64,000 bases of DNA, from NCBI RefSeq assembly GCF_022662105.1, contig NZ_JAKMCP010000003.1:558001-622000 (forward strand), written 5' to 3'. The DNA comes from Aestuariivivens sediminis (GTDB lineage Bacteria; Bacteroidota; Bacteroidia; Flavobacteriales; Flavobacteriaceae). The position numbers and the translations under genes are program-made. The notes under the pieces were generated by a model. That model saw only the letters and a list, made by a program, of their open reading frames with translations, made no database searches and was not told the origin of the DNA. Of the stretch, positions 37,821 through 45,543 are shown piece after piece (position 1 is the first letter of the stretch; every line of letters begins with the position of its first letter).

Positions 37821-39764
<1,944 letters not shown>

Positions 39765-39924: not shown

Positions 39925-40292
39925 CGAAATATTAGGGCCGTTAAAAACCATTTTAGTGCGTTTACTTAATAATTATCAACAATTGTTAATTAATTGAAAG
40001 TGTCTTAAATCGCCTAAAAACCGCCTTAAAATCGATTTTACATGTTTTAAGGTGTCTTTAAAACTGGATAAAATACACAAAGGTCTTAAAATCGATATTC
40101 TTTGCTTTAATCCTTAAAATTTTTTTATAAAAAGCAGGCCCATTTTACATCTGAGAAACAGTTTTTCAACAAAAAAATAGTACAACAAAGCATAAAATTT
40201 AAATAACATCAATCATTCACCTCATTTTTTAATAATTTGACAATACAGCAAACGATATGGAAAAAAATAGTGTTTAGTTTGTTATTTCTCTA
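39925..40292. other. AT-rich gene-free stretch with short repeats and palindromes
   Basis: No gene is visible on either strand. It holds a perfect 14-bp palindrome TAAAATCGATTTTA (40027-40040); the 12-mer CTTAAAATCGAT at 40025 and again at 40085 (60 bases apart); inverted CCTTAAAA/TTTTAAGG arms around the palindrome; and TTATCAACA near 39974, one base off a DnaA box. These could be regulator sites or structural DNA; nothing decides. Confidence 0.4.
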
Positions 40293-40300
40293 TATATTTG
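40293..40300 (+). promoter_or_regulatory. -7 promoter box of the gatC-gatA-gatB/aspS operon
   Basis: TATATTTG is an exact TAnnTTTG match, 15 bases before the leader-peptide ATG. The transcript would start near 40306-40308, giving a leader of about 135 bases before gatC. Confidence 0.7.
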
Positions 40301-40315
40301 GGGCATATAATTTTT

Positions 40316-40363
40316 ATGGCAAGTAATAATAACAATAATAATTTCAATAATCCTAGCATATAG
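40316..40363 (+). CDS. Asn-rich leader peptide of an attenuator
   Basis: This 15-codon ORF reads MASNNNNNNFNNPSI and ends with TAG at 40361-40363. Eight of fifteen codons are Asn (seven AAT, one AAC), six of them consecutive. It lies 15 bases after an exact -7 box and is followed by mutually exclusive hairpins and a terminator just ahead of genes that make Asn-tRNA(Asn). Its evident job is to be translated as a sensor of charged tRNA-Asn: the ribosome stalls on the Asn run when that tRNA is scarce. Chance low-complexity sequence is the alternative, but position, stop-codon spacing and downstream pairing all fit attenuation. Confidence 0.85.
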   Translation: MASNNNNNNFNNPSI

Positions 40364-40424
40364 GACTGGAAGGTTATTGTTTAAAAATATGATTTAAGCC
40401 TTCCGATTTCGGAAGGCTTTTTTT
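40351..40424 (+). promoter_or_regulatory. Asn-responsive transcription attenuator (pause, antiterminator, terminator)
   Basis: Pause-type stem: TCCTA/TAGGA (40351-40355 with 40361-40365). Antiterminator: TGGAAGG plus TTA (40367-40376) pairs with TAA plus CCTTCCG (40395-40405), about ten pairs including one G-U and one bulged G at 40398. Terminator: 40396-40419, sharing the same CCTTCC strand. The antiterminator strand begins 3 bases after the leader stop codon. A ribosome that finishes the peptide would cover it and allow termination; one stalled on an Asn codon would leave it free. Confidence 0.82.
40396..40424 (+). terminator. Intrinsic terminator inside the gat operon leader
   Basis: AAGCCTTCCGA and TCGGAAGGCTT form a perfect 11-bp stem with a 2-base loop, running into seven Ts, only 19 bases before the gatC ATG. 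No full gene lies upstream on this strand that would need it; it follows only the 15-codon leader. Confidence 0.95.
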
Positions 40425-40443
40425 AATTAAAACCTATTATGAC

Positions 40444-40713
40444 ATGAGTAAAATTATGACGGTCGACATTTTGTCTAGTATTAAAGGGGCACAGCCCAGT
40501 AAGGCTGTAAACAAACTTTTTGAAGTTATTAAAAAGGCTAATCCATCCCACAATAATGCTTTTAACAGTACCCTTAATAGTGTTGCGTCATTGGATCATT
40601 TGAGAGACGATGTGGTTATTGAAAGTTCTGAGTTGGAAAAACAAATTATCATACAAAACTTTCCGAAATCCAAGAATAACTACCTGGTCGTTTCTAAAGT
40701 CATTGAAGAATAA
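40444..40713 (+). CDS. gatC: Aspartyl/glutamyl-tRNA amidotransferase subunit C (divergent)
   Basis: The 89-residue protein is divergent, but its second half follows GatC: LDHLRDDVVIESSELE corresponds to the LRxDxV block, and NFPKSKNNYLVVSKVIEE to the conserved NxPxxxxxYxVVPKVIE end. GatC is the belt that holds GatA and GatB together. Placement 2 bases before gatA and ahead of gatB confirms the call. The first 45 residues are less recognisable. Confidence 0.85.
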   Translation: MSKIMTVDILSSIKGAQPSKAVNKLFEVIKKANPSHNNAFNSTLNSVASLDHLRDDVVIESSELEKQIIIQNFPKSKNNYLVVSKVIEE

Positions 40714-40715
40714 TT

Positions 40716-42116
40716 ATGGACTCTCAAATAGAAAAACTCCACCAGCAATTGGTAGACCAAGACATATCCTGTAAATCATTGGTACAGGAAAAACTGGATG
40801 TTTTAAAACCGAATACTCACAATACGGTAAACACCTTGTTAGATAAAATGGCACTGGATTTAGCTGAAAAGGTTGATGCCAAAATTGCCAGTGGGGAGCC
40901 AATCGGTTTGCTCGAGGGCATTCCTTTTGGTGTTAAAGATGTATACATGGTTCAAGGGACAAAGACTACCGCGAGCTCCAATTTATTGAAACACTATACA
41001 TCGGCATATACGGCGACAGCCATCCAAAAATTATTGGATGCAGGGGCTATTCCTATTGTAAAAGAAAACTGTGACAGCTTTGGTCATGGTTCTTCCAGTG
41101 AAAACACCATTTTTGGTGCGGTTAAAAATGCGATTAACCCGAATTTGGTAGCCGGTGGTTCCAGTGGAGGCTCTGCCGTAAATGTTGCCAAAGATTACAC
41201 CGTTTTTTCTATTGGTGGCGATACCGGTGGCTCGATCCGTCAGCCCGCAGGTTATAATAGCGTTTATGGTTTGAAACCGACTTACGGTCGCATTTCAAGA
41301 TATGGTTTAATGGCTTACGCATCGTCCACAGATTGTGTGGGTCCCATCGCAAGATCTCTTGAAGATATTCGTATTGTGCTAAATACGATGAGTGGAAAAG
41401 ATCCAAAAGACCAAACGACTTACGCTTCGGTACCAATTTCAAAAGAAAGCCTGTCCCATATAAAAACTATAAAGGCCGTTGGTTATTTTAAAAATTTTAT
41501 TGAAAACAAAGCCATCGATCCAAAGATTAAATCCGATTTTTTGATGACCATTGAAAAGATAAAGGCCAATGGCTTTGAGGTGAAGCCACTGGATTTTTTT
41601 GAGTCGGAAACTTTAGTTTCAACTTATTACACCTTAGCTATGGCTGAAACCGCTTCAAACTTATCGCGGTTGGATGGCACGAACTACGGGAGCCGGGTTG
41701 AAGCCGAAAACTTAAAGGAAACCTATTCCGTTACTCGGTCTCAAAATTTTTCAGAAGAGACCAAACGACGGATAGTTGGTGGGAACCAAGTACTTTCACA
41801 AGGGTTTTCTGATGAAATCTATTTAAAGGCATTAGCGATACGGGATCAAATTTCAGAGAATTTTGAAAATGATTTTAGCTCTGTTGATATTATCATTTCA
41901 CCCGTTACTCCAAATACGCCTCCTCAGATTGGAAGCAGCCTAAAGGACCCACTGGCCATGTACCTTTCTGATGCCTTTACCGTCGGTTTTAGTTTAGGGC
42001 AACTGCCAACCTTAACCGTACCTCAGGGGACTGCTACAGGTTTACAAATTACAGCAGCCAAGGACAAAGATGGTCTCGTACTAACCTTTGCTAACTTTTT
42101 AAAAGATATGATGTAA
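40716..42116 (+). CDS. gatA: Asp-tRNA(Asn)/Glu-tRNA(Gln) amidotransferase subunit A
   Basis: The 466-residue amidase-signature enzyme has GIPFGVKDVYMVQG with the catalytic Lys at about residue 74, VAGGSSGGSAVNVA (cis-Ser, about 149) and GGDTGGSIRQPAGY (nucleophile Ser, about 172), plus GLKPTYGRISRYGLMAYASSTD, the GatA-specific block. It releases ammonia from glutamine (or asparagine) for GatB. It lies 2 bases after gatC and 85 bases before the gatB/aspS fusion. Confidence 0.94.
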   Translation: MDSQIEKLHQQLVDQDISCKSLVQEKLDVLKPNTHNTVNTLLDKMALDLAEKVDAKIASGEPIGLLEGIPFGVKDVYMVQGTKTTASSNLLKHYTSAYTATAIQKLLDAGAIPIVKENCDSFGHGSSSENTIFGAVKNAINPNLVAGGSSGGSAVNVAKDYTVFSIGGDTGGSIRQPAGYNSVYGLKPTYGRISRYGLMAYASSTDCVGPIARSLEDIRIVLNTMSGKDPKDQTTYASVPISKESLSHIKTIKAVGYFKNFIENKAIDPKIKSDFLMTIEKIKANGFEVKPLDFFESETLVSTYYTLAMAETASNLSRLDGTNYGSRVEAENLKETYSVTRSQNFSEETKRRIVGGNQVLSQGFSDEIYLKALAIRDQISENFENDFSSVDIIISPVTPNTPPQIGSSLKDPLAMYLSDAFTVGFSLGQLPTLTVPQGTATGLQITAAKDKDGLVLTFANFLKDMM

Positions 42117-42201: not shown

Positions 42202-45200
42202 ATGAAACTGGAACAATTAAATGAGCTGTTAAAGGCTCACGAAATAGAATTAGTTATTGGTCTGGAGACCCATGTTCGACTGAATACCAAAACCAAGTTA
42301 TTCTGTTCCTGTGCCAACCAAGAATCGGAGATTCCTAATACCAATATTTGTTCGGTATGTACCGGACAAATGGGCGTTCTACCGGCGGTTAACAAAGAAG
42401 CTGTTAAAAAAGCTATCTACTTTGGCAAAGCCGTGAAATCAACCTTTGAAAATGACGTGATTTCTTGGGATCGAAAGCATTACGAATATCCCGACAATCC
42501 TAAAAATATTCAAATAACACAATTCCATAATCCTATAATCCCTGATGGGCAAGTATCGTGTTTTAGAAATGATGGTTCTCAATTTACCGTTAATCTGACG
42601 CAAGTTCATATTGAAGAAGATGCCGCTAAATTGATGCACGAGAAAACAATCTCCTTGGTAGATTTTAATAAGGCCGGAGTGCCTCTCATAGAAATTGTTA
42701 CAGAACCTTGTATTCGGCATATTGAAGACGCCTCAACATATGCGCAATACATTCAACGGATAGTCCAAAACTTAAAAATATCTGAGGCCAATCTGGAAAA
42801 AGGTGAATTTAAAAGTGATGTCTCGGTATCACTCAGAAAAAAGCACAGCTATAACCTGAATCCCCGTACCGAAATAAAGAACTTAAACTCCTTTAAGTTT
42901 ATGGTGGAGGCCCTAAAAGAAGAGGTTGAAAAGCAACTGCATTATTATTTGGAGCACAAAGATTTTAGGCCAGAGCAAACTACTGTTCTCTTTGACGCCG
43001 ATTTGAAGCAAACCAAAACCATGCGTAAAAAGGAATATGAAGCGGACTATCGTTTTATTTCGGAACCCGATTTGCCTTTTGTAAACATTAAAGCGGTTGT
43101 AGATACTATCGATGTCGATATTAGTGCTTTACCCTTTGCTGTAGAATCCATATTAATTAGAGGCGGCGTTTTACCCCAGGATGCAAAATTCTTTACAGCC
43201 GACGCTTTACGTTCTGAAACGTTTGTAACCATTAATAATATCATAAAAGACCCGTCCTTTGTTGCAAAGACATTAACCAATAACATTAAGCCCGAAGACT
43301 ATTCTCAAATTAAGAACGTCTCGGATTTTATAGCGATTTTCAATTTATTGAAAGACGAAAAAGTAACGCCTGTATTAGCGCAACATGCCATTAAATCGCT
43401 GTTGAAAGATTCTCGATTTGACTACAAATCCTATTTTGAGTCCAATTCCATTTCCGAAGAAAAAATCCATGATGCGATACAACAGGTTCTTTCAAAAAAT
43501 GAATCTGTGGCTAACGATATATTAGCCGGAAATCAAGGAAAAGCCGGAATTCTCGTTGGAAAGGTGATAGCCATTATTGGAAAGGGTGCCTCAGGCAAAG
43601 TCATACGCGAAGGCATTATTAATCAATTGCAAAGTAGGGCGACCATAGCACCAGGTAGTTCGATTTCTGTTGAAAAACCAACATCCCCTAAAAAGGAGCA
43701 ATTAACAAAAGTACAGGAAGAAGAGAACTTACCTGAAATTCCTATTGTTGTAAAGGACAATTATCGTACCCACAAGGCTTCACAGCTTTCTGAACGTTCA
43801 ATTTCGGAAAGGGTAACCCTAGCAGGGTGGGTATCCAGTGTTCGTGATCACGGCGAACTGATCTTTATTGACTTAAGGGATTCCAGTCATGAAACGTTTC
43901 AGGTGCGATTAAGCAGGGAATCATTTCCAAATCTGGATGAACTGGTAAAATTGAAACCCGAATCGGTCATTACCGTAACCGGTGTTATTGTAAAGCGACA
44001 TGCCGATGATTATAATCCAACCCTTAGAACGGGAACCATTGAATTAGAAACGTCTCATTTGGACATTCTTAACTTGTCGAGAACCCTGCCTTTTGAAATC
44101 AAACGTGCCCATAAAACGAACGAAACGGTCCGTTTTCAATATAAATATCTGGATCATAGAAATGATGACGTACGTCGCGCTATTGTAAACCGTCATAAGG
44201 TCATTAAGTTAATGCGCGATATCCTGGATGAACAAGAATTTTTGGAAGTAGAGACCCCAATTCTTACTGCTGGAACCGATGAAGGTGCCAGGGAGTTTAT
44301 TGTTCCCACAAGAAAGAAGGCAGGATCTTTTTATACCCTTCCTCAGGCTCCTCAACAGTTTAAACAAATGTTAATGGTGAGTGGTTATGAGAAATATTTT
44401 CAGATAGCACGCTGTTTTAGGGATGAAGATTCTCGTGGCGATAGACAACCGGAATTTACCCAATTGGATATTGAAATGGCCTATGCCAGTATGCAGGACA
44501 TTATCGATTTAAATACCAATTTATTTAATGCCATTGTCAACAAAATTTATGGTAAAAAATGGATGTTATACCCATTTGAAGTCATTACGTATCAAGAGGC
44601 AATGGATAAATATGGTTGCGATCGCCCTGATTTGCGTTTTGGTTTACCATTACAGGATATTACGGATATTGTTAAAGAAACCTCTTTTCAGGTTTTTAGC
44701 AAGCCCATTGACGATGGTGGTATTGTAAAATGTATTAAAGTTACCGCGAAAGAGCAAGGCAAAAAACGGTTGTCGAAAGGACAAATTGAAAACCTCACAG
44801 CTATTGCACAAGAGCATGGCTTGGGAGGTCTGGCCTATATTATCGTGAATGAGCATGATCTCCAATCTCCTATTATCAAATTTTTAGGTGAGGCCATTGC
44901 AGAAAATATTATTACAACCACCAATGCCCAGGTTGGTGATATCGTATTTTTCTCGGCTGCCGATTACGACACCGCCAATAAAGCTTTAGACGCGGTTAGA
45001 CAGGCATTGGGCAGGATGCTTAAACTGATAAACCCCAAAGAATTACGCCCCGCTTGGGTAGTTGACTTCCCCATGTTTGAAAAAACGGATGAAGGTCGCT
45101 GGACCTTTACACACAATCCTTTTTCCATGCCGGTGGTTAGCGATATTCAAAAGCATATTGATGGCAAAGAGGAGGAAATAGGGGCTATTATTGCCCAACA

Positions 45201-45543
45201 ATATGATTTAATCCTAAACGGTTACGAAATTGGTGGAGGATCTATAAGGGCTCATAAGCCGGAAATTTTGGAGGCCACCTACAGAAATATGGGTTACAAT
45301 AAACAAGACATGCTTAAAAGTGTGGGAACCATGTATAAAGCCTTTCATTATGGAGCTCCTCCTCATGGTGGTATTGCCTGGGGTGTGGATCGATTAATGA
45401 TGATACTGGAGAAAAAAGCGTCCATTAGAGAGGTCATGGCATTTCCAAAAACCGGTACCAGCGAAGATTTGTTATTTGGATCACCATCACCGCTACCCGA
45501 CAAAAAAGTTGAGGAAATGAATGTAAAAGTGATTAAAAAATAA
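42202..45543 (+). CDS. gatB/aspS: GatB-aspartyl-tRNA synthetase fusion protein
   Basis: One 1113-residue frame holds two enzymes. Residues about 1-480 are GatB: ELVIGLETHVRLNTKTKLFC, zinc Cys pairs CSC and CSVC, EDAAKLMHE, FNKAGVPLIEIVTEP, and the YqeY-like tail ending GKASGKVIREGI (loosely). Residues about 481-520 are a hydrophilic linker. Residues about 521-1113 are bacterial-type AspRS: anticodon-binding domain (GWVSSVRDHGELIFIDLRD), motif 2 (CFRDEDSRGDRQPEFTQLD), an inserted GAD domain and motif 3 (GGIAWGVDRLMM). AspRS would make Asp-tRNA(Asn) and GatCAB amidate it. RDHG has His where E. coli AspRS has Leu, as in non-discriminating enzymes. Checked in the given bases: no stop or frameshift at the junction. 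Confidence 0.95.
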   Translation: MKLEQLNELLKAHEIELVIGLETHVRLNTKTKLFCSCANQESEIPNTNICSVCTGQMGVLPAVNKEAVKKAIYFGKAVKSTFENDVISWDRKHYEYPDNPKNIQITQFHNPIIPDGQVSCFRNDGSQFTVNLTQVHIEEDAAKLMHEKTISLVDFNKAGVPLIEIVTEPCIRHIEDASTYAQYIQRIVQNLKISEANLEKGEFKSDVSVSLRKKHSYNLNPRTEIKNLNSFKFMVEALKEEVEKQLHYYLEHKDFRPEQTTVLFDADLKQTKTMRKKEYEADYRFISEPDLPFVNIKAVVDTIDVDISALPFAVESILIRGGVLPQDAKFFTADALRSETFVTINNIIKDPSFVAKTLTNNIKPEDYSQIKNVSDFIAIFNLLKDEKVTPVLAQHAIKSLLKDSRFDYKSYFESNSISEEKIHDAIQQVLSKNESVANDILAGNQGKAGILVGKVIAIIGKGASGKVIREGIINQLQSRATIAPGSSISVEKPTSPKKEQLTKVQEEENLPEIPIVVKDNYRTHKASQLSERSISERVTLAGWVSSVRDHGELIFIDLRDSSHETFQVRLSRESFPNLDELVKLKPESVITVTGVIVKRHADDYNPTLRTGTIELETSHLDILNLSRTLPFEIKRAHKTNETVRFQYKYLDHRNDDVRRAIVNRHKVIKLMRDILDEQEFLEVETPILTAGTDEGAREFIVPTRKKAGSFYTLPQAPQQFKQMLMVSGYEKYFQIARCFRDEDSRGDRQPEFTQLDIEMAYASMQDIIDLNTNLFNAIVNKIYGKKWMLYPFEVITYQEAMDKYGCDRPDLRFGLPLQDITDIVKETSFQVFSKPIDDGGIVKCIKVTAKEQGKKRLSKGQIENLTAIAQEHGLGGLAYIIVNEHDLQSPIIKFLGEAIAENIITTTNAQVGDIVFFSAADYDTANKALDAVRQALGRMLKLINPKELRPAWVVDFPMFEKTDEGRWTFTHNPFSMPVVSDIQKHIDGKEEEIGAIIAQQYDLILNGYEIGGGSIRAHKPEILEATYRNMGYNKQDMLKSVGTMYKAFHYGAPPHGGIAWGVDRLMMILEKKASIREVMAFPKTGTSEDLLFGSPSPLPDKKVEEMNVKVIKK

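Follow-up and report, generated by a model that had tools for sequence, protein, structure and literature searches.

The region in front of gatC in Aestuariivivens sediminis very probably acts as a transcription attenuator of the ribosome-mediated kind, which would sense Asn-tRNA(Asn) and thereby control the tRNA-dependent synthesis of asparagine. In the window analysed, a stretch of 64,000 nucleotides, a compact leader occupies the gap between gyrB (37821-39761, minus strand) and the gatC start at 40444. Attenuation by sensing of Asn-tRNA had been put forward in the original prediction and is now supported by comparative evidence, namely the observed sequence anatomy, conservation, competing folds in calculation under a ribosome mask and gene content, with no data from cells. 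The leader meets three of the demands made on such an attenuator: its ORF is rich in Asn (8 of 15 codons in A. sediminis), antiterminator and U-tailed terminator exclude each other as judged from sequence, folding and alignment, and the downstream genes for GatCAB and AspRS supply the sensed amino acid.

A -7 box of the TAnnTTTG class, TATATTTG, can be read on the plus strand at 40293-40300, exactly where it had been placed. According to the available part of PMC9723704 the flavobacterial -7 box is positioned at -12 to -5, which puts the predicted transcript start at about 40305, 11 nt upstream of the ATG; this start is inferred and not mapped. Further 5', at 40269-40292, a GTGT..(T)AGT stretch is kept in six aligned leaders, in the place where one might look for a TTG -33 element. 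The leader peptide ORF MASNNNNNNFNNPSI on the plus strand has 15 codons, eight of them for Asn, and runs from the ATG at 40316 to the TAG at 40361-40363, as originally described. Within the Asn codons, AACAATAAT together with TTTC (strand 1, 40331-40345) is able to pair with the antiterminator arm TGGAAGGTTATTGTTT (strand 2, 40367-40382) according to RNA folding. Strand 2 begins 3 nt past the stop codon, and TGGAAGGTTA does start 3 nt 3' of the TAG, as had been noticed before. It is followed by the terminator 5' arm AAGCCTTCCG (strand 3, 40396-40405), whose CCTTCC core can pair with either strand 2 or strand 4, and by the 3' arm CGGAAGGCTT with its T tail (strand 4, 40410-40424), all on the plus strand.

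As a whole the terminator reads AAGCCTTCCG-ATTT-CGGAAGGCTT and ends in the seven Ts ascribed to it (T418-T424); the stem comprises 10 bp and not 11 as claimed, and two of the seven terminal Ts belong to it. Since gyrB lies upstream on the other strand, the terminator serves no upstream gene. The RNA 40307-40425 folds at -30.3 kcal/mol compared to a mean of -17.4 kcal/mol for shuffled sequences (z -3.9), and none of 200 shuffles was as good. The proposal that the CCTTCC strand can pair with either of two partners was borne out in the sequence, the complementarity between antiterminator and terminator 5' arm being equalled in only 5 of 2000 shuffles of the spacer.

We propose the following course of events, in which ribosome stalling, termination and read-through in cells are inferred in the absence of transcript or translation data. 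Transcription would begin about 11 nt 5' of the Asn-rich ORF. With ample Asn-tRNA, the ribosome would reach the TAG and cover the adjoining GGAAGG strand, whereupon the GCCTTCC/GGAAGGC terminator would form and the RNA would end near 40424. If Asn-tRNA is in short supply, the ribosome would stall in the Asn run and leave GGAAGG free to pair with CCTTCC before the terminator 3' arm is made, allowing read-through into gatC-gatA-gatB::aspS. Through the fused AspRS, probably a non-discriminating enzyme, and GatCAB, Asp would then be turned into Asn on tRNA(Asn), and the signal would end.

The competition between the stems was calculated for 78 distinct leaders by folding the RNA with strand 4 not yet made and with everything from the transcript start to the leading edge of the ribosome removed, a mask that is cruder than the footprint of a real ribosome. 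With the ribosome stalled at any of four tested codons the antiterminator formed with a mean probability of 0.993-0.995 (lowest single value 0.89), and with the ribosome at the stop codon this mean was 0.008 (highest 0.06), in agreement with what had been predicted for a ribosome mask. Without a ribosome the mean was 0.87 and the antiterminator formed in most of the leaders, so shut-off would depend on translation. In A. sediminis itself the value without ribosome was 0.16 and the Asn codons pair with strand 2; this protector hairpin of strands 1 and 2 is dominant here, but not in most other leaders. In the model it is the ribosome at the stop codon that seems to bring about shut-off, with the protector hairpin being no shared feature, and the position of the ribosome would decide which stem forms, as far as calculation can tell without demonstration in cells.

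We determined how widely the leader occurs. In a sample of 149 Flavobacteriaceae genomes 23 carry gatC, and in 14 of these loci, chosen by gatC alone, a -7 box, an Asn-rich ATG...TAG peptide, the GGAAGG strand and a terminator precede the gene; the test of orthologous leaders for an Asn-rich ORF and two stems thus came out in favor of the original prediction, with no leader found upstream of gatC in the remaining 9 of the 23. A TA..TTTG box is present within 50 nt of gatC in five of the nine leaderless loci. Among the leaderless loci, the upstream sequences of L011, L013, L015, L020 and L023 all contain CTTTCGTAATTTT near gatC, which may be an unattenuated promoter. A sequence pattern derived from six leaders matched 28 of 397 family genomes, once in each, and the reversed pattern gave no match in the same 397 genomes. 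Together with two more leaders found via gatC this makes 30 family leaders, all with ATG and TAG. GatC was not found in a search of viral contigs.

When applied to a collection of named species, the pattern matched 73 contigs, and in 72 of them gatC starts 111-282 nt past the start of the pattern; the 73rd (L117) is cut off too early to show gatC. All 73 leaders have ATG, TAG and 7-10 Asn codons, and 72 have a TA..TTTG box 18-27 nt upstream of the ATG. The contig titles name Algibacter, Polaribacter, Flavivirga, Confluentibacter, Seonamhaeicola, Hyunsoonleella, Tamlana, Mariniflexile and others, genera which we take to be Flavobacteriaceae; the remaining titles read 'Flavobacteriaceae bacterium', except for a single 'Bacteroidia bacterium' (L095). 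The patterns fixed NFNNP and GGAAGGTTRTTG (GGAAGGTTATTG for the family scan), so conservation at these places is not independent evidence, whereas the start codon, the Asn run 5' of NFNNP, the stop codon, the -7 box and the terminator were left free. A fixed rule asking for an Asn-rich ORF and a terminator was met by only one of 289 other ORFs of at least 150 aa in the loci, and this one has a Trp-rich (WWW) leader 5' of a trpE-like gene. The 63/66 matches of the same rule at gatC are non-independent, since the loci had been picked by the leader pattern.

The way in which the leaders vary points to translation of the ORF and to competition between the stems. AAT alternates with AAC at three positions of the Asn run, both being widespread, with non-Asn codons in 7, 5 and 1 of the 78 distinct leaders; a codon nearer the Phe is non-Asn in 13 of 78, mostly Arg. 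GGAAGG is found 3-5 nt past the stop codon in 77 of the 78 leaders; in the L071 leader the stop codon is located two codons later. All 77 leaders with a located stem keep CCTTCC, which the search score favored, and six of the 77 have an altered core in the opposite terminator arm (strand 4), every change still allowing pairing by G.U. This asymmetry of 6 versus 0 (p 0.016 if the changes are independent), a fixed CCTTCC facing a variable arm, is expected of an arm with two partners. In 30 aligned leaders the pair closing the terminator loop is GC in 13, AU in 12 and unpaired in 5. All eight antiterminator pairs are kept throughout these 30 sequences (240 of 240 cells), 28 of which had been selected with a pattern containing one arm. 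Strands 1 and 2 are pairable in 99.6% of cells. Two-sided covariation for strands 1:2 and 2:3 was not found among the aligned leaders.

Downstream of the leader the order gatC-gatA-gatB/aspS stood as predicted, but the third gene turned out to encode one fused GatB-AspRS protein. The gatC ORF (40444-40713, plus strand) has no NCBIfam match; it was assigned from its position ahead of gatA and gatB and from kinship. The product of gatA (40716-42116, plus strand) matches TIGR00132 with 435 bits, which is under the curated cut-off of 481.1 and nevertheless by far the best match. The fusion (42202-45543, plus strand; 1113 aa) exceeds the cut-offs of NF004012 and NF001750, with GatB at about residues 14-477 and a bacterial-type AspRS at about 520-1113. 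Gene order and fusion are the same in all 25 named loci with at least 5300 nt downstream, and 22 of the 23 gatC genomes were seen to have a fused AspRS; in the one remaining genome the contig is short. The AspRS part is 38% identical to the stand-alone AspRS of the same genome and carries RDHG where the stand-alone enzyme of A. sediminis has RDKG; RDHG is also present in all 6 fused genes that were fetched and, out of 25 named loci, in the 2 that the search motif picked up. We take the His of RDHG to be the mark of a non-discriminating AspRS, although no paper supporting this was found, and the fused AspRS is probably non-discriminating, a specificity that we infer.

We also assessed how asparagine is supplied in genomes carrying gatC. 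AsnRS was detected above cut-off in 148 of 149 family genomes including A. sediminis, which rules out gatC as its replacement, and GlnRS and a stand-alone AspRS occur in all 23 gatC genomes, again including A. sediminis. The statement that the controlled genes make Asn-tRNA is incomplete with regard to these other synthetases. Canonical AsnB was found in 0 of 23 gatC genomes compared to 109 of 126 without gatC (p about 1e-16, uncorrected for kinship). The query at E up to 1e-30 had matched 115 of 149 genomes before filtering; six were left out (G006, G007, G033, G044, G124, G132), their best match being N-terminal only with E between 1e-36 and 1e-31, and two of the remaining 109 have partial genes (G048, G079). 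AsnA is present in 10 of the 149 genomes and in none of the 23 with gatC. In the A. sediminis genome neither AsnA, canonical AsnB nor any AsnB-family match above the TIGR01536 cut-off was found. With AsnRS, GlnRS and stand-alone AspRS present and AsnA and AsnB missing, the operon is read as a route of asparagine biosynthesis. Most likely, as judged from gene content and with the AspRS specificity inferred, gatC-gatA-gatB::aspS makes Asn on the very tRNA that is sensed by the leader, and the identity of the operon's product and the molecule sensed would create an unusually direct feedback loop.

Two observations limit this reading for other genomes. The general AsnB family (TIGR01536) is above cut-off in 9 of the 23 gatC genomes (G002, G006, G034, G044, G061, G113, G124, G132, G134; calls for G034 and G061 judged by E-value), where GatCAB need not be the sole source of Asn; these proteins, whose function is not known, give at best weak matches to the canonical AsnB query. 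Of the 126 genomes without gatC, 11 yielded neither canonical AsnB nor AsnA, so absence of both synthetases alone is no proof of tRNA-dependent synthesis. According to the accessible portion of PMC4206432, bacterial GatCAB recognises U1-A72 of tRNA(Asn), and bacteria, including Bacteroidetes, that possess AsnRS, GlnRS and GatCAB but lack Asn synthetase probably synthesise their Asn on the tRNA. As far as that portion goes, its criteria are fulfilled in A. sediminis, which has GatCAB, an extra AspRS, a U1-A72 tRNA(Asn) and no detected Asn synthetase. The acceptor ends of 30 genomes, read by eye, all showed U1-A72 (19 with gatC, 11 without), and this pair does not separate the two groups.

Asn-rich leaders were also observed in front of other genes. 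An Asn-rich ORF and a terminator lie 5' of asnA in 6 of 24 loci (L062, L138, L139, L140, L195, L199), two of the six outside Flavobacteriaceae. Besides L062, the 24 loci comprise 10 from the family and another 13 taken from a sample of the phylum, which includes one more member of the family; the pair is absent in 17 of the 24, and L146 lacks a usable ORF. Some terminators of L138 and L140 were spotted by eye in the sequence. In L140, and perhaps in L138, two Asn-rich leader ORFs are arranged in tandem 5' of asnA, each followed by a terminator. The antiterminator helices were matched by few of 1000 shuffles in L140 (13 and 3), the first of L138 (1), L195 (31), L199 (1) and L164 (6), and did not stand out from the shuffles in L139 (154), L062 (97), L160 (203) and the second of L138 (411). 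Upstream of asnB an Asn-rich leader with terminator is present in 2 of 20 regions taken from 109 genomes, and a third region (L156) has a terminator without a qualifying ORF. None of 20 regions upstream of asnS, from 20 of the 23 gatC genomes, contains an Asn-rich leader.

It is possible, though we put it forward only tentatively and somewhat short of probable, that Asn-specific attenuators sensed by the ribosome have several origins in Bacteroidota, in front of gatCAB, of asnA (there with tandem copies) and of asnB, where they would do the job of T-boxes, and that the one at gatCAB reports when transamidation has been completed. EF-Tu is not known to deliver Asp-tRNA(Asn). The ribosome would therefore count the mischarged tRNA as missing, which a mere sensor of charging could not do, and the leader would offer a simple reporter for whether the ribosome sees mischarged Asp-tRNA(Asn) as starvation.

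Other explanations of the leader have to be considered. The ORF could respond to slowed translation in general, e.g. in the presence of antibiotics, instead of Asn-tRNA, as any stalled ribosome would free the antiterminator, and a ribosome at any tested codon before the stop does free strand 2 in the mask model. We regard this as very unlikely, because the Asn codons are kept despite changes between AAT and AAC and because Asn-rich leaders of their own stand in front of some asnA and asnB genes and in none of the 20 asnS regions. An independent small gene for a small protein or an sRNA, located before gatC by chance, would explain a promoter box of its own and a strong terminator, but then it would hardly be followed by gatC in all 72 leaders with enough downstream sequence, nor would the strand common to both stems be conserved. 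In 14 leaders the terminator moreover starts 47-79 nt before gatC, leaving little room for a separate promoter (promoters were not systematically searched), and the possibility appears extremely unlikely.

Direct binding of uncharged tRNA(Asn) by the leader RNA, as in a T-box, has some appeal since the AspRS/GatCAB pathway is reportedly under T-box control in Clostridium acetobutylicum (so the title of Saad et al. 2012, the only part known to us). Such binding is nonetheless extremely unlikely here, as it would leave the conserved start codon, stop codon and reading frame unexplained. T-boxes number zero in seven Bacteroidetes/Chlorobi genomes according to the part of PMC2494555 at hand, and the leader region gave six Rfam matches at E values up to 1, none of them to a T-box. 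All Rfam matches at the leader are sub-threshold, the best being ncr1575 with 34.5 bits versus 60; Phe_leader (RF01859) reaches 30.5 bits, under its gathering score of 55, and no T-box was found at gathering scores in 10 loci.

In the trp-, his- and phe-type attenuators of Proteobacteria, a short leader peptide with many residues of the regulated amino acid and an antiterminator that competes with a terminator stand in front of a biosynthetic operon, and the attenuator proposed for gatC resembles them in all these respects. It differs in sensing asparagine and in that GatCAB and the fused AspRS make the product on the sensed tRNA, as well as in its Bacteroidota promoter, with a transcript start predicted 11 nt before the ATG, and the lack of a generally stable protector hairpin. 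Nearest in logic is the Clostridium T-box, where a shortage at tRNA(Asn) switches on the same AspRS/GatCAB route; there the RNA itself is said to bind the tRNA, whereas a translating ribosome would be the sensor in the gatC leader. Within the same family, the accessible part of PMC9723704 gives strong clues for leader-peptide attenuation 5' of amino acid biosynthesis operons in Flavobacterium psychrophilum. Its main text contains neither 'asparagine' nor any word starting with 'asn'; an Asn case may still be listed in its supplementary table. Short ORFs that recall leader peptides are mentioned for Bacteroides thetaiotaomicron in what is available of PMC7366714. Among the matches listed in open-licence literature, supplements excluded, no paper dealt with an Asn-sensing leader peptide or with control of gatCAB by such a peptide. 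Attenuation by leader peptides is known as such; the novelty appears to lie in the amino acid sensed, in the target and in the recurrence ahead of further genes for making Asn. If true, asparagine would join the amino acids sensed by leader peptides, and the leader would show how bacteria without reported T-boxes can regulate amino acid synthesis on tRNA.

An RNA model of the leader matched 12 of 296 genomes of the order, including A. sediminis, and revealed two new gatC leaders (L052 and L054). It also gave ten weak places of 43-52 bits, of which one is the asnA leader of L062 and two lie 5' of ilvD-like genes (L058, L063); the other seven look like unrelated terminators. On the minus strand of L085 a trp-type leader, MKNNTNNTWWWNSLI, and a terminator precede a trpE-like ORF starting at 1705. 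In L063 and L058 terminators are located 5' of the ilvD-like genes, and L063 additionally has a short ORF rich in Ile and Val, MMQISIIITSVVVVNVIHTSASGMV, in front of the terminator.
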